Notes under the pieces: model-generated
Database searches by the model: none
Told to the model about the DNA's origin: nothing
What the model saw: the letters and a program-made list of their open reading frames with translations, nothing else
Made by a program: the position numbers and the translations under genes
Shown here: piece by piece, positions 3,798-22,712 of the stretch
How the letters are laid out: every line of letters begins with the position of its first letter
Numbering within the stretch: position 1 is the first letter of the stretch
NCBI RefSeq assembly: GCF_017355955.1
Contig: NZ_JAFFID010000002.1
Coordinates: forward strand, 62,001-126,000
Length of the DNA: 64,000 nucleotides
Direction of reading: 5' to 3'
Source of the DNA: Sabulibacter ruber
GTDB taxonomy: Bacteria > Bacteroidota > Bacteroidia > Cytophagales > Hymenobacteraceae

Positions 3798-4482
3798 AAT
3801 CAAAAAAGTGAAGCAAGGCATGGGCCAGCAGGGGCCAGTCCAGTTGCTCCAGGGGGTGTTTGGTATTAGGTAAAACTTGAAACTGCCCCTGCGGCAATTG
3901 CCGGTAGGCGGCCAGGGATTCTTCTACGGAAACCATCTGGTCTTTGTCGCCCACCGCAATCCGGACCGGGACGGAAACCTGAGCCAGCTTGGAGGCCGGC
4001 AGAACAGGCTGCTCACCCAATTGGCGCATCAGGTCGGCGGTGCGGCGCACTACTTCTACCCAATCCTGGGGCGCATGCCTGGTTTTAAGGGTTTGGGCAA
4101 AAACGGGCACTTTTTCGGCAAGCACTTCGGGCCGCAGTTTCGCAACCTCGGTCTGGGCCACCTCTGGAGTCCAGTTAAACTTGGTGGCCAGCGTGAAGAT
4201 TTTGGAAAAACGGCTGGGCTGCTGGCGGGCTGCCTCTAACGCAATATAGCCTCCCATGCTATAGCCAAAAACCCGCACCTTGGGCAACTGCTGTTCTTTA
4301 AGCCAGTGCAGTAGCTGGTCCACAAAAAAGTCTATGCGGAAAGGCTCCTCGGGGAAAGCCTCTCCGCCATGCCCGGCCAGATTGAAAGAATACACTGGCA
4401 ACTTGGGAGGCAGCAACGACAAAAGCGGTTTGAACTGAGTCTTAGCGCCCAGCGCACCGTGTAGCAGCAGCAATGGTTCCAT
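3790..4482 (-). CDS. Alpha/beta hydrolase
   Basis: The protein begins MEPLLLLHGALG at 4482; a longer frame from 4536 adds 18 residues that do not fit the fold. The HGALG stretch forms the oxyanion hole. The nucleophile elbow is GYSMGG (Ser about residue 75), followed by a likely Asp in AVGDKD (about 181) and His in NTKHPLEQ (about 209). This is the complete Ser-Asp-His set of small esterase/MenH-like hydrolases. The substrate is unknown, and the surrounding genes (rlpA, acetyltransferase) give no pathway. The gene overlaps rlpA by 8 bases and follows the acetyltransferase gene on the same strand, so the three may be one transcript. Confidence 0.85.
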   Translation of the reverse strand: MEPLLLLHGALGAKTQFKPLLSLLPPKLPVYSFNLAGHGGEAFPEEPFRIDFFVDQLLHWLKEQQLPKVRVFGYSMGGYIALEAARQQPSRFSKIFTLATKFNWTPEVAQTEVAKLRPEVLAEKVPVFAQTLKTRHAPQDWVEVVRRTADLMRQLGEQPVLPASKLAQVSVPVRIAVGDKDQMVSVEESLAAYRQLPQGQFQVLPNTKHPLEQLDWPLLAHALLHFFDYA

Positions 4483-4569
4483 ACGGGAAGTTAAGCTTCT
4501 TTTGCAGACAACCCAAACGCGTTGTTTTAGGGCCACATTTCTGAAACCGCACCTAAAACAGACACAGCA

Positions 4570-5013
4570 TCAGCCGCCTTCGTTCAGTTTTTTCAGGAAG
4601 TGGAAGCCCTTGATGGCAAATCCTTCGCGCAGGTAGAATTTGTGGGCGGCATTGTTCACCACGTAGGCATCCAGCATCATGGTTTCGCATTGGTTTTGCT
4701 GGGCTTCCTGGGTGAGCCAGTCCAGCAGGCGTTTTCCTATGCCATGAGAGCGGTACTGCTCATCTACCACAAAGTTGTCTACCTCCAGGTACTTGCCGCT
4801 GTACAGTTTGGTGCCAATCCAGAAACCCGACAGCCCCAGGCAAGTGGCTCCATCAAAGACGCCCACCATGCGGTACTTAATGGGGAGCATCTGCCGCAAC
4901 AGCGTTTCATAGCGCTCAGCTTCCATATTGGGGTTCAGGCACTGAATCAGATGAAGTTGCTGTAGCATCTCGGGCATCTCGGTTATTTCCCTTATCTGAA
5001 ATGGTAATGTCAT
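4570..5013 (-). CDS. GNAT family N-acetyltransferase
   Basis: This 147-aa protein shows the acetyl-CoA-binding signature VDEQYRSHGIGKRLLDWL (residues about 83-100), where R/Q-x-x-G-x-G binds the pyrophosphate. The usual last strand follows (TMMLDAYVVNNAAHKFYLREGF). The domain fills the whole protein, as is typical of single-domain GNAT enzymes. The acceptor could be a small amine, an antibiotic or a protein N-terminus, and cannot be predicted. It is first of a possible three-gene minus-strand group with the hydrolase and rlpA. A long AT-rich leader lies upstream. Confidence 0.88.
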   Translation of the reverse strand: MTLPFQIREITEMPEMLQQLHLIQCLNPNMEAERYETLLRQMLPIKYRMVGVFDGATCLGLSGFWIGTKLYSGKYLEVDNFVVDEQYRSHGIGKRLLDWLTQEAQQNQCETMMLDAYVVNNAAHKFYLREGFAIKGFHFLKKLNEGG

Positions 5014-16836: not shown

Positions 16837-19218
16837 TTAGCTACCGCAAGCCTCGCAAGCGTCTGGGTTATCCAGGGAGCAGGCCATGTCGCTTTGGTTT
16901 TGTTCTACCGAGCTGTACATCGGGGCCAGGGTTTCGGCGGCCTGTTTCTCTACGGTGAACTTGATGGCGTCTGCGGCGGCTTTGGTGCGCAGGTAGTACA
17001 TACCGGTTTTCAAGCCTTTCTTCCAGGAGTGGAAGTGCATAGAGGTCAGTTTCCCGAAGTTCACGTTAGACACGTGCAGGTTCAGGCTTTGGCTCTGGCA
17101 GATGTACGCTCCGCGGTCGGCAGACATGTCAATGATGGTCCGCTGGCTGATCTCCCACACGGTCTTGTACAGGTCTTTGATGTGCTGCGGAATGTTAGGA
17201 ATACCCTGCACCGAGCCATTGGCGGCAATGATGGCATTCTTCATCTGGTCGTTCCACAGGTTAAGGTCAATCAGATCCTGCAACAAGTGCTTGTTCACCA
17301 CCATGAACTCCCCGCTCAACACGCGGCGCACGTAGATGTTAGAGGTGTAAGGCTCAAACCCTTCGTTGTTCCCCAGAATCTGCGAGGTAGAAGCGGTTGG
17401 CATGGGCGCTACCAACAGAGAGTTGCGTACGCCATGCTCTACCACTTCCTGACGAAGCGCTTCCCAGTCCCAACGGCCGCTCTCTGGCTTCACGCCCCAC
17501 ATATCAAACTGGAAGATACCCCGGCTGATAGGCGAGCCTTCAAAGGTCTCGTATGGTCCGTTCTTTTTCGCCAGGTCCTTAGAGGCCGTCATGGCCGCGA
17601 AGTAAATGGTCTCAAAGATGTCTTTGTTCAGGCGAGCGGCTTCTTCGCTGTCAAACGGCATGCGCAGTTTCAGGAAGGCATCGGCTAAGCCTTGCACCCC
17701 TAAGCCTATTGGGCGGTGACGCAGGTTAGACTTCTTGGCCTCTGGTACCGGGTAGTAGTTGATGTCAATTACCTTGTTCAGGTTCTTGGTAACGGTGTAG
17801 GTTACGTCGTACAGCTTCTGGTGGTCAAAGAACTTACGGCCGCCTTCTTCTTTGATAAAGCGTGGCAAGGCCAGAGAGGCCAGGTTACACACGGCAATCT
17901 CATCGGCATCGGTGTACTCAATGATCTCGGTGCAGAGGTTAGAGCTCTTGATGGTACCCAGGTTCTGCTGGTTAGACTTGCCGTTGGCGTGGTCTTTGAA
18001 CAGCATGTACGGCGTACCGGTCTCGGTCTGGGCTTCCAGAATAGCGAACCACAGTTCCTGCGCTTTGATGGTTTTGCGGGCTTTGCCTTCGCGCTCGTAT
18101 TTCTCATACAGGCGCTCAAAGTCTTTCCCCCAGGTTTCAGACAAGCCAGGGCACTCATTAGGGCACATCAGGCTCCAGTCGCCGTTGGCCTCTACGCGCT
18201 TCATGAACAGGTCTGGCGTCCATAACGCTAAGAACAGGTCACGGGTACGCATCTCTTCTTTCCCGTGGTTCTTGCGCAGATCCAGGAACTCAAAGATGTC
18301 TGAGTGCCATGGCTCCAGGTAAATGGCAAACGCGCCTTTGCGCTTTCCGCCGCCCTGGTCTACGTAACGGGCCGTGTCATTGAACACTTTCAACATTGGT
18401 ACCAAGCCGTTAGACGTACCGTTGGTGCCTTTGATGTAAGAACCCGTGGCTCTGATGTTGTGCACCGCCAGGCCAATACCACCGGCGCTCTGGGAGATAA
18501 GCGCGCAGTTTTTAAGCGTGTCATAAATGCCCGGAATGCTGTCTTCCTTCATGGTTAACAGGAAGCAGGAAGACAACTGAGGTTTAGGCGTACCGGCGTT
18601 GAACAAGGTTGGTGTAGCATGCGTGAACCACTTCTCAGACATGAGGTTGTAGGTCTCAATAGCCGCGTCAATGTCGTTCTTATGGATACCCACGGCCACG
18701 CGCATGAGCATGTGCTGCGGACGCTCCACCACTTTGCCGTTCACGCGCAGCAGGTACGAGCGCTCCAGGGTTTTGTACCCGAAGTAATCATAGTTGTAGT
18801 CGCGGTCATAGATGATGCTGGAATCCAGCACGGCCGCGTGTTTCTTGATCACATCAAATACGTCCTTCGCAATCAGAGAAGCGTTTTCCCCGGTTTTGGG
18901 GTCTACGTAGGTGTAGAGCTGCTTCATGGTGTTGAAGAACGATTTCTGCGTCACCTTGTGCAGGCTGGAGATGGCAATGCGCGCCGCCAGAATGGCGTAA
19001 TCGGGGTGCTTGGTGGTCAAAGACGCCGATGTTTCCGCCGCCAGGTTATCCAGTTCTACCGTGGTTACGCCATCGTAGATCCCGTCAATCACCTTCTTGG
19101 CGACCTCAATGGGGCTTACGAACGTCATGTTCAGGCCATAGCATAGTTTCTCTATGCGGGCCGTGATCTTATCAAATTTGACCGACTCCCGGCGGCCATC
19201 TCTTTTTACAACTAACAT
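16837..19218 (-). CDS. nrdA: Ribonucleoside-diphosphate reductase, class Ia alpha subunit
   Basis: The 793-aa protein reduces ribonucleoside diphosphates to deoxy forms together with NrdB. An ATP-cone occupies the N-terminus ([16 protein letters not shown]). Active-site residues are C218 (LSSCFLL), N427, C429 and E431 (NLCTEI) and C444, and the C-terminal redox pair is in EACGS. These fall at the same residue numbers as in human RRM1, and the sequence is eukaryote-like throughout, as is usual for Bacteroidota class Ia enzymes. nrdB lies upstream on the same strand with a 292-base gap that holds a near-promoter (TACCTTTA form around 19237), so nrdA may have its own start as well. Confidence 0.97.
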
Positions 19219-19510: not shown

Positions 19511-20470
19511 CTAGAAATCTTCGTCCAGAGAGAACACGTTATCATTGCGGTCGGCCATTACACCGGCTTTCTGATATTCACCCACGCGTTTCTCAAAGAA
19601 GTTGGTTTTGCCTTGCAGGGAGATCATCTCCATGAAGTCAAAAGGATTGGTAGCATTGTAGATTTTGGTGTAGCCCAGCGCCACTAACAGGCGGTCTGCT
19701 ACAAACTCAATGTATTGTGTCATGAGTTTTGCGTTCATCCCTATGAGGTCCACGGGCAGGGCATCGGTCACAAATTCCTGCTCAATGCTCACCGCGTCGC
19801 GGATGATGGTATGTACGCGCTCTTCTGGCAACTTGTTCACTAACATAGAGTAAAGCAGGCACGCAAAATCTGTGTGCAGCCCCTCGTCACGGGAGATCAG
19901 CTCGTTGGAGAAGGTAAGGCCTGGCATCAAGCCGCGCTTCTTCAACCAGAAAATAGAACAGAAAGAACCAGAGAAGAAGATACCCTCTACCGCGGCAAAG
20001 GCAATCAGTCTTTCAGTGAAGTTCTCAGAGTTGATCCACTTCAGCGCCCACTCGCCTTTTTTCTGCACGCAAGGAACTGTCTCCAGCGCGTTGAACAGGC
20101 GGTCTTTCTCCTGCGGGTCTTTAATATAAGTGTCAATCAACAGCGAATAGGTTTCAGAGTGGATGTTTTCCATCATAATCTGGAAACCATAGAAACAACG
20201 GGCTTCTGGCATCTGCACTTCTTGCATGAAGTTGATGGCCAGGTTCTCGTTCACGATTCCGTCTGAAGCGGCAAAGAAAGCCAGCACGTGGGAAATGAAG
20301 TGGCGCTCGCCGTCGTTCAGTTTTTCCCAATCTTTCAAGTCCGGCGACAAGTCGATTTCTTCGGCCGTCCAGAAGCTAGCCTCTGCTTTCTTATACATCT
20401 GCCACACGGCATCGTTTTGGATGGGGAACAGGACAAAGCGATTCGGGTTCTCTTGTAAAATGGGCTCCAT
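19511..20470 (-). CDS. nrdB: Ribonucleoside-diphosphate reductase, class Ia beta subunit
   Basis: The 319-aa protein carries the di-iron and tyrosyl radical. All expected residues are present: D70, E101, H104, the radical tyrosine Y108 ([10 protein letters not shown]), E162, E196 and H199 (SRDEGLH). The C-terminal FSLDEDF is the tail that docks on NrdA. It resembles eukaryotic R2 closely ([28 protein letters not shown]). It is first in the nrdB-nrdA order. Upstream, CAAATATA at 20591-20598 is the complement of a TATATTTG -7 box. DnaA-box-like sites in the same upstream region may link its expression to replication. Confidence 0.97.
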
Positions 20471-21423
20471 AAACTATACGGTTAATTGCTCTTAATAATA
20501 AGGGAGGATAACGGTGCGCGGGCGTTACACCTCGGCCGCCACAGCCCCTGAACCGGTGGCCCAGGAGGCAATTGCTTTGGCTTGAGATTTCAAATATAGG
20601 GACAAATACGTTGTTTGCCCGTTCTGAACCGCCTAATTTATCCAATTCTTATACAGCGGTTATCCACATTATAACGTCCTGTTAATCAGTATCTTAAAAT
20701 TTTATCAAAATTAGAAACCCTAAATATAGGCTTAATTCTATAGCTGCAGACTGGTATCTCAAAGGATAGCAATACACCCACAGAAAGAGAAGCTTACCGC
20801 CTTGAAAACGGAAAATACAAGAAGAGGAAAGCAGAAGTTTTAAGCAGACCACAGGCACCCAAAACGCAGAAAGCACCTCCAACCACAGCCGCTGCGCTGC
20901 GCTTCAATCAGATCCGGCCAATCGCGTGAATACTTGCCACACCACTTCAGCCTCCTGAACCTCTGTTGCCAGTTCTACTCAGACAAACTCCAGATTTTTT
21001 TTTTACCCACAGATATCCACAGGCAATGAACACCGCCTACGCCAAAGCCGCTCAGGAACACAGAAACACCTTTAGTCAAGAAACCCGCTGTTTTTCTTGG
21101 ATTTAGCGCAAAAACAACGTACTTTCATTTACCTCTAAAACTAGGAAACACCGCCACTGCACAGCGGTTTTAAGGCCCGTTTTCCACCAATTTCCACGGG
21201 CTTGTTTCTTTTCCTGCGAGTTTTCCCACACGTAACTACTTGACTATCATTACAAATTTGGTTTATCCACTTGAGTTATCCACATTTCTGGGGAAAACTC
21301 ACAACTTGTTAGAAGTCAGGGAAGTACTCAACTGATTAGGAGGAAAATTAAAGAAAGGAAACTTGGATATACCGGTTGATAGTCTTACCTTTGCGGTTCA
21401 TTTTTAAAAACTATCGTAAGCTG
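20471..21423. other. Gene-free region with a cluster of DnaA-box-like sites (candidate oriC or DnaA-regulated region)
   Basis: This 953-base interval between leftward nrdB and rightward rplU has no supported gene. TTATCCACA occurs at 20660-20668 and 21276-21284. One-mismatch forms are TTACCCACA (21003-21011), ATATCCACA (21013-21021) and TTATCCACT (21263-21271). All five are on the plus strand. A strongly AT-rich block (about 20669-20745) adjoins the first box, and a T-run precedes the middle pair. Divergent, growth-linked genes on each side fit a replication origin. The alternative is DnaA control of nrdB, known in E. coli. dnaA itself is not in the window. Confidence 0.55.
21363..21393 (+). 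promoter_or_regulatory. Promoter of rplU-rpmA
   Basis: TTG (21363-21365), 20 bases and TACCTTTG (21386-21393) match the Bacteroidetes promoter form. The rplU ATG at 21424 is 30 bases downstream, which rules out the longer reading frame that begins at 21376 inside the promoter. Confidence 0.8.
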
Positions 21424-21732
21424 ATGTACGCAATTGTAGAAATCGCTGGTATCCAGACGAAAGTAGAGAGCGGTAAGTTCTTCTACACTAACAAGCTTTC
21501 CGGCAATGAGGGTGACGCCGTAGAGTTCGCCAATGTTCTTTTAACTGATGACAACGGAACTTTAACTGTTGGTGCTCCTTTTGTAGAAGGTGTGAAGGTA
21601 ACTGGAACTATCCAGGGCCACGCTAAAGGTGACAAAGTGATCGTTTTCAAGAAGAAAAGAAGAAAAGGTTACAAGAAGAAAAACGGTCACCGTCAACAAT
21701 ACACCAAAGTGTTGATCAACACTATTGGCTAA
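21424..21732 (+). CDS. rplU: 50S ribosomal protein L21
   Basis: The 102-aa protein starts [20 protein letters not shown] and follows L21 to the end, with the basic rRNA-binding segment [20 protein letters not shown]. The start at 21424 is fixed by the family N-terminus and by the promoter at 21363-21393; an upstream in-frame codon at 21376 would lie within the promoter. L21 binds 23S rRNA domain I in the large subunit. rpmA follows 69 bases later, the conserved L21-L27 order, and both end at one terminator. Confidence 0.97.
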
Positions 21733-21801: not shown

Positions 21802-22080
21802 ATGGCACACAAAAAAGGTGTAGGTAGTTCTAACAACGGCCGTGAATCACATTCCAAGAGACTAGGTGTTAAAATCTTCGGTGGCCAGCCTATCATTGCT
21901 GGTAACATCATCGTGCGTCAGCGCGGTACTGCTCACCACCCAGGTCAGAACGTAGGTATCGGGAAAGACCATACTTTGTTCGCTTTGACTGACGGTGTAG
22001 TATCTTTCAGAAAAGGTGCTAAAAACCGCTCTTACGTTTCAGTTATCCCAGTTGCTGAGACTACTGAAGCTCAAGCATAA
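21802..22080 (+). CDS. rpmA: 50S ribosomal protein L27
   Basis: The 92-aa protein starts [20 protein letters not shown], the standard L27 N-terminus that reaches toward the peptidyl-transferase centre; there is no cleaved N-terminal extension of the Firmicutes type. The core [21 protein letters not shown] and [12 protein letters not shown] is fully conserved. It is co-transcribed with rplU. The C-terminal TTEAQA tail is slightly longer than average. Confidence 0.98.
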
Positions 22081-22142: not shown

Positions 22143-22330
22143 TGTTGGCTGCTTATTGTACGTTTTTGGGCCGTTTTTTGGGAAACCGGCTTGAAACAGG
22201 CTTTTCTCTTTTACGCCAAACATCATCTCCTTGTCTCCTCAAAGGCAGTGTGGCTGGCAAGAAAAAGGATGGTGATGCCGTTGGGGTTATTGGTAACAAG
22301 GCCAGGACACAGAGGAAAGCTTTTCTGGAA

Positions 22331-22712
22331 TGCGTGCGGACACGAGCCGGAGGCTCGCGCCAGCGGATCAGCAATCGTTTCTTTGTGGCTAATGCCTCAC
22401 GGCAGTTGCAAACTGCCATCATGGTAGGTCCAAGTCACAGATTTGAACCATGGAAAACAATAGAGAAAAGATCCAAAATCACCTGCTCTGCTAAACAAGG
22501 CACCAACAGGAAGGAACCAATTCCAGTCTTTCCGTTGAGCGCCTTAGCAGGTTCCGGTGCCGCCAGGCATTGCGACCCCACGGGAGCAAAGGGAGCTGGT
22601 ACAGCGCGAGGCGGGAAGACGGTGCCCCGCGGCCGTGAGCGCATATCGCCAGCTATGCAAAGAAGCGCTCATAAACCCATAGACAAGCGGGAATTCGCCA
22701 GCGTTAGCAGAT
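22331..22712 (+). repeat. Long structured intergenic repeat, copy 2
   Basis: This is the second copy of the repeat at 2926-3340, same orientation, about 19.4 kb away. Shared blocks include GGACACGAGC, TCGCGCCAGCGGATCAGCAA, CGGCAGTTGCAAACTGCC, the CATGGT...ACCATG stem and AGCGCCTTAGCAGGTTCCGG. The first hairpin reads GAGCC-GGA-GGCTC (22344-22356) where copy 1 has GAGCG-GGA-CGCTC, a paired change that keeps the stem. The GTAGAGAC palindrome of copy 1 is missing here. A 192-codon open frame crosses it but is not kept in copy 1. Confidence 0.75.

Follow-up and report, generated by a model that had tools for sequence, protein, structure and literature searches.

Control of ribonucleotide reductase by DnaA is described in PMC8203912 as established in E. 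coli and as a proposal for B. subtilis and C. crescentus. By the same account, DnaA-ADP or low DnaA-ATP can activate E. coli nrdAB, while high DnaA-ATP represses it (PMC8203912). ChIP-seq data presented in PMC11317965 indicate that E. coli DnaA prefers pairs of boxes 2–3 bp apart; the nrdA gene carries a double box, and at purH the addition of one base to a 3-bp spacer strongly reduced binding. Among the sites that this source describes as bound by DnaA in E. coli are datA, DARS1 and DARS2, which are DnaA-box sites near genes and outside the origin (PMC11317965). The account in PMC2275245 takes TTATCCACA as the default perfect DnaA box, and dnaA, dnaN, gidA, hemE and the like as indicator genes of oriC.

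The gap between nrdB and rplU resembles the E. coli nrdAB system in that DnaA boxes lie upstream of a class I ribonucleotide reductase operon and that the boxes stand in tandem with a short spacer, which is 2–3 bp in the E. coli arrangement gTTATCCACAaagTTATGCACTt (PMC11317965). It differs in having nrdB as the leading gene, a promoter word of Bacteroidota type, three tandem words and, on the other side of the gap, the divergent rplU-rpmA with boxes of its own; NrdR was not found. The gap is best read, with a probability of about 0.7, as a DnaA-bound control region between divergent promoters, acting chiefly on nrdBA and probably touching rplU-rpmA, and not as an origin. As such it would probably be a DnaA-controlled ribonucleotide reductase promoter of a kind already known.

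The window, that is the whole stretch of 64,000 nucleotides that was analysed, spans positions 62,001-126,000 of contig C145 in an assembly of 222 contigs, and the gap lies at 82.5–83.4 kb on that contig. The gene names nrdB, nrdA, rplU and rpmA were assigned from the sequences. The features are the following.

16837-19218, minus strand: nrdA, large subunit of ribonucleotide reductase (793 aa), encoded downstream of nrdB (open reading frame)
19511-20470, minus strand: nrdB, ribonucleotide reductase small subunit, 319 aa (open reading frame; relatives 86–90% identical)
20471-21423, no strand: putative divergent intergenic control region between nrdB (minus) and rplU (plus) (open reading frames and sequence)
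20591-20598, minus strand: TATATTTG (CAAATATA on the plus strand), nrdB −7 word matching TAnnTTTG, present in 14/14 genus sequences
20638-20646, plus strand: TTATCCAAT, opening word of the tandem array, weak and box-like with 2 mismatches, separated by 2 bp from TTATACAGC
20649-20657, plus strand: TTATACAGC, central word of the tandem array, weak and box-like with 3 mismatches, separated by 2 bp from the perfect box that follows
20660-20668, plus strand: perfect box TTATCCACA, nrdB side, conserved (motif scan, 14-sequence alignment)
20700-20732, no strand: conserved AT-rich block upstream of nrdB, not a DnaA box (14-sequence alignment)
21003-21021, plus strand: two one-mismatch boxes, TTACCCACA and ATATCCACA, not conserved (motif scan, alignment)
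21222-21230, plus strand: degenerate box TTTCCCACA, 2 mismatches in the window, at most 1 mismatch in 9/14 genus sequences
21263-21271, plus strand: one-mismatch box TTATCCACT, rplU side, conserved (motif scan, alignment)
21276-21284, plus strand: perfect box TTATCCACA, rplU side, 4 bp past the 21263 box, conserved
21363-21393, plus strand: rplU promoter TTG-N20-TACCTTTG, Bacteroidota −33/−7 type
21424-21732, plus strand: rplU, ribosomal protein L21 (open reading frame, matches of relatives)
21802-22080, plus strand: rpmA, ribosomal protein L27 (open reading frame)

The first-pass annotation had proposed this 953-bp gene-free stretch as a candidate replication origin or DnaA-controlled hub. 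Its extent was confirmed, with nrdB starting at 20470 and the rplU ATG at 21424, and on rescanning the boxes were found where they had been placed, two perfect (20660 and 21276) and three with one mismatch (21003, 21013 and 21263), all on the plus strand. The growth-linked genes do diverge from the gap, nrdBA leftward and rplU-rpmA rightward, but such divergence, which had been taken as expected around oriC, is not specific to origins. The AT-rich block at 20700-20732 is a candidate for a second promoter or for the site of another regulator; in an origin, such a block beside the boxes would be the candidate for the DNA unwinding element. Further downstream, past rpmA, the window holds at about 22313-22711 a copy of a dispersed repeat family, with matches in 11 other stretches of the same genome (60 searched), the longest of about 420 bp at 74–81% identity; against the G012 and G017 stretches of the same genus it gives only short matches of up to 126 bp.

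Over the window as a whole, sites with at most one mismatch are not in excess (14 against 10.95 expected, a number reached by 20 of 100 shuffles), and the gap, with a GC content of 43%, holds 5 of these 14, both perfect sites among them. Dinucleotide-shuffled versions of the gap (n=2000) contain a mean of 0.22 boxes and a maximum of 4; none has five boxes and none has two perfect ones. The five-box cluster is not due to chance. Perfect boxes are not enriched genome-wide, since the 6.16-Mb genome contains 40 of them and likewise 40 copies of the reversed control word. Pairs of perfect boxes within about 620 bp of each other occur three times in the genome: in the gap, upstream of mraZ (C156:555953/555991) and at C200:23857/24459, the last of which falls within a coding gene. 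An Rfam search gave a sole match, which at 16.1 bits (E 0.81) fell short of the gathering score of 55.

Fourteen sequences of the genus, that of the window included, were aligned; the nrdB start was not recognised by pattern in 6 of the 14 loci, for which 1000 bp was taken, and the nrdB-side block aligned in all 14. Two blocks are conserved, one on the nrdB side (about 20571-20770) and one on the rplU side (about 21221-21320), with a poorly conserved middle. Three of the five boxes are conserved, with per-column means of 13.2 (20660), 12.6 (21263) and 13.3 (21276) of 14 against 7.6 for the whole gap, while the middle boxes 21003 and 21013 are not (4.8 and 4.1 of 14). Within the genus, the boxes keep nearly fixed short distances from nrdB and from rplU.

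On the nrdB side, the three words of the tandem array follow each other in 11-bp steps, which leaves 2-bp spacers, with the main box last. This main box shows 0 to 2 mismatches across the 14 sequences, and the two weak words 2–4. Both weak words have at most 3 mismatches in 12/14 sequences, a level reached by 1.4% of random 9-mers of the gaps, although they were scored at fixed offsets within a conserved block and hence do not count as independently conserved. In the rplU-side pair, a 4-bp spacer separates the two boxes, and exactly one member is perfect in 13/14 sequences, which one varying; box 21263 is free to vary at its ninth position. The pair is located about 146–164 bp upstream of rplU in the genus and, in the window, about 80–100 bp upstream of the −33 word.

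Intergenic sites with at most one mismatch in C145:1-420,000 were compared with the complete genomes G012 and G017, with 200 permuted words as the control. The count of 25 such sites is in itself unremarkable, as 12 of the 200 permuted words get there. Five sites align in both relatives and four of these are kept as boxes, a number that none of the permuted words reaches (mean 0.16 kept). Two of the kept boxes are at rplU, and the other two, both with one mismatch, are within 45 bp upstream of mnmG (C145:308,340 and 308,372), where they might serve DnaA control of mnmG or form a part of the origin. Upstream of the nrd genes, DnaA boxes are conserved in relatives, box 20660 being kept in G017 and not scored as kept in G012.

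The arrangement extends beyond the genus. Among the best 30 of 60 genomes matched, which cover four of six genera with the window's genome included and leave genera g5 and g6 outside, at least one box is found at −260 to −60 from rplU in 30/30 loci and at least two in 29/30, compared with a mean of 1.9 loci and a maximum of 25 for 500 permuted words over the same 30 loci. In genus g6, where 14 genomes were searched and perfect boxes are fully listed for 6 (in part for G056), the six full lists total 142 perfect boxes, 11 of them in the nrdB-rplU gap, with at least one per genome.

A broader survey covered rplU in the best 80 of 580 relatives, among them five Hymenobacteraceae chosen by name, and came to 79 loci after L114, which has no upstream sequence, was dropped; in 3 of these 79 the upstream sequence is shorter than 1.5 kb, so that a distant nrdB could be missed. 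At least two boxes within 400 bp of rplU occur in 7/12 loci with a divergent nrdB and in 0/67 without (Fisher p 2.7e-7, with shared ancestry ignored). With the five named Hymenobacteraceae removed, the comparison becomes 2/7 against 0/67 (p 0.008, shared ancestry again ignored), and the contrast shrinks when a single box is enough (7/12 against 9/67). Boxes within 400 bp of rplU are lacking altogether in five of the 12 loci with adjacent nrdB, and all five are outside the named Hymenobacteraceae (5/7 there). The box-bearing loci come mostly from one family and hence are not independent. This distribution suggests that the putative DnaA control is aimed mainly at nrdBA.

The closest named rplU loci among these best 80 of 580 are from Pontibacter, Adhaeribacter and Hymenobacter, on which ground the window is taken to be of Hymenobacteraceae type. 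In the Hymenobacter locus L047 tblastn places nrdB at −483 from rplU. No locus with rplU apart from nrdB was seen among the named family members surveyed. Two loci not labelled as Hymenobacteraceae also combine a divergent nrdB with several boxes, L093 (a Cytophagales MAG) with three and L121 (a MAG labelled Bacteroides) with two. In a literature search, mostly confined to papers outside subscription, no title among those listed concerned the nrdB-rplU locus and no paper came up on DnaA boxes at rplU, which is not a claim of absence from print.

The −7 consensus of Bacteroidota promoters is TAnnTTTG. A TTG-N19-21-TAnnTTTG match is present upstream of rplU in 30/30 loci of the family set (the best 30 of 60). 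Upstream of nrdB, no TTG is found 19–21 bp before the TAnnTTTG word in any of the 14 genus sequences, and the tandem array is located 40–70 bp upstream of that word. This position, together with the missing −33 word, suggests that DnaA most likely activates nrdBA.

In the proposed mechanism, DnaA would assemble cooperatively on the nrdB-side array and would most likely activate nrdBA from just upstream of a promoter without a −33 word, while high DnaA-ATP might repress it, as described for E. coli nrdAB. The 2-bp spacing of the array fits the 2–3 bp rule of E. coli. The 4-bp spacing of the rplU-side pair falls outside this range and speaks against the same reading on that side, in view of what a lengthened spacer does at E. 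coli purH; the boxes there may regulate rplU or may just lengthen the array.

NrdR is the usual repressor of ribonucleotide reductase. A search with TIGR00244 gave no match in this genome, while NrdR was detected in 9/14 control genomes. With DnaA in control, dNTP supply would be coupled to the replication initiator in a genome that gave no NrdR match. Control of ribonucleotide reductase by DnaA, which the first-pass annotation had offered as its alternative, is the better-supported reading, in view of the conserved positions, the cooperative-type spacing on the nrdB side, the association with nrdB adjacency and the lack of an NrdR match. A conserved Bacteroidota case with no detectable NrdR would suggest that the link between DnaA and ribonucleotide reductase is wider than the model organisms. 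It is conceivable, if rather doubtful, that DnaA is the main regulator of ribonucleotide reductase throughout a family that may lack NrdR, and that one origin-proximal hub sets both nrdBA and rplU-rpmA and perhaps also buffers DnaA; if true, such a hub would couple replication, nucleotide supply and translation.

The DnaA of this genome matches chain 1j1v, presumably the DNA-binding domain of E. coli DnaA, over residues 384-468 (E 1.2e-17). Its GGRDHSTVIHS segment corresponds to GGRDHTTVIHA in the best-matching chain, 8btg. The genome accordingly encodes a canonical DnaA DNA-binding domain with the expected recognition segment.

A different function for the gap would be that of datA, DARS1 and DARS2, in which a site near the origin limits or recycles free DnaA and the flanking genes are bystanders. 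The likeness is that of non-origin DnaA-box sites near genes, bound by DnaA in E. coli (PMC11317965) and seen here as sequence. The clusters are conserved and origin-proximal, with rplU located 88–389 kb from mnmG in 17/20 genomes (on different contigs in the other 3), and the accumulation of E. coli DnaA boxes towards the origin is read in PMC12371093 as favouring titration. However, the boxes of the gap are few, they sit at promoters, at near-fixed short distances from both genes within the genus, and multiple boxes accompany nrdB adjacency, all of which makes a datA- or DARS-like role unlikely.

Alternatively, the boxes might be conserved for the control of rplU-rpmA, with nrdBA as the bystander. 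This would account for the genus-wide box pair upstream of rplU, which is kept in G012 and G017. It is an improbable explanation, as the 67 rplU loci with no divergent nrdB include none with two or more boxes within 400 bp and nine with one.

Binding of another regulator with a similar site, in place of DnaA, to the conserved TTATCCACA-like words would be in keeping with the free variation at the ninth position of box 21263; we infer DnaA binding at the gap from the sequence. Such a regulator is very unlikely, since TTATCCACA is the default perfect DnaA box in PMC2275245 and also clusters downstream of mnmG in genus g6, and since the DnaA of this genome keeps its recognition segment.

As regards the chromosomal origin, the first 420,000 bases of C145 were read contiguously and have their cumulative GC-skew minimum at C145:297,223. 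Taken in 20-kb stretches, the skew stays largely below zero over the first 300 kb or so, apart from slightly positive values at 120–160 kb; beyond this, as far as 1.02 Mb, every stretch sampled is positive. The switch was placed by a two-level change-point fit with a 95% block bootstrap in the window's genome and in G012 and G017. In the first, the change point is at 298 kb (242–344), with rplU at 83 and mnmG at 308 kb; in G012 it is at 4,402 kb (4,310–4,532), with rplU at 4,571 and mnmG at 4,359 kb; and in G017 it is at 1,502 kb (1,452–1,538), with rplU at 1,352 and mnmG at 1,510 kb. The skew switch thus does not fall at the gap: rplU is outside the 95% interval in 3/3 genomes and mnmG is inside it in 3/3. 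The share of bootstraps nearer rplU than mnmG is 0.7% in the window's genome, 6.5% in G012 and 1.1% in G017. G012 alone separates the two loci weakly, with a log-likelihood drop of 4.9 at rplU against 2.9 at mnmG. Coarse sampling had suggested a switch near rplU in G017, which was rejected when contiguous sequence put the minimum at 1,501,579. The purine and keto skews of C145:1-420,000 have other minima, at 248 and 384 kb.

The mnmG gene (gidA) is located at C145 308,383-310,245, about 225 kb from the nrdB-rplU gap. At C145:312,727-313,109, which is 2.5–2.9 kb past mnmG and within the skew interval, seven boxes with one mismatch are spread over the two strands, the first within the end of the preceding gene. 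Within the mnmG-side gap, the window's genome, G012 and G017 all keep a TTATCCACT box with an AT-rich block after it, and in genus g6 two to five perfect boxes are found 2.9–5.6 kb downstream of mnmG in 6/6 fully listed genomes. By box score, the nrdB-rplU gap ties with this mnmG-side cluster for the top of C145:1-420,000. In G012 and G017, the box-like words of the mnmG-side gap mostly have two mismatches, the top clusters of one-mismatch or perfect boxes are 15–37 kb from mnmG, and the rplU cluster is among the top eight. The ranking of box clusters is not decisive by itself, and the placement of the origin therefore rests on the skew, the conserved block and the g6 genomes.

By these measures, the origin is most probably over 200,000 bases away from the nrdB-rplU gap. 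Its predicted placement near mnmG can be made with confidence, and that to the exact gap with less, because the box match at the mnmG-side gap is not uniform and because of a further cluster, at C145:351,179-351,232, of three boxes (one perfect) in 54 bp. The latter is intergenic, does not align in both relatives and, being just outside the skew interval, is a minor rival candidate; the best candidate is C145:312,727-313,109. The mnmG-side candidate is usable for orienting Hymenobacteraceae-type assemblies. In agreement with the remark of the first-pass annotation that Bacteroidota origins are often away from dnaA, this gene is on contig C178, and no box with at most one mismatch is found in the 520 bp around its start, from 453 bp before to 66 bp after the beginning of the open reading frame.

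An intergenic DnaA-box cluster with an AT-rich block is what the nrdB-rplU gap shares with bacterial origins beside gidA, and the boxes are well above chance (0/2000 shuffles reach five), conserved in position, tied for the top score and origin-proximal, yet an origin at the gap is extremely improbable, as the skew minimum is elsewhere, the indicator genes checked are away from it (dnaA on another contig, mnmG 225 kb off) and a better candidate, with its conserved AT-rich block and the perfect-box clusters of all six fully listed g6 genomes, competes at C145:312.7-313.1 kb. The cumulative GC skew was among the checks named for the origin proposal, and with its minimum and change point near 298 kb and the gap at 82.5–83.4 kb, the proposal fails as far as sequence can decide it.

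The cluster upstream of mraZ has four box-like words in 47 bp (C156:555,953-555,999), two of them perfect and on opposite strands. They adjoin TGGGA-N5-TGGGA repeats, which recall MraZ sites, mraZ being presumably the first gene of a division and cell-wall cluster.
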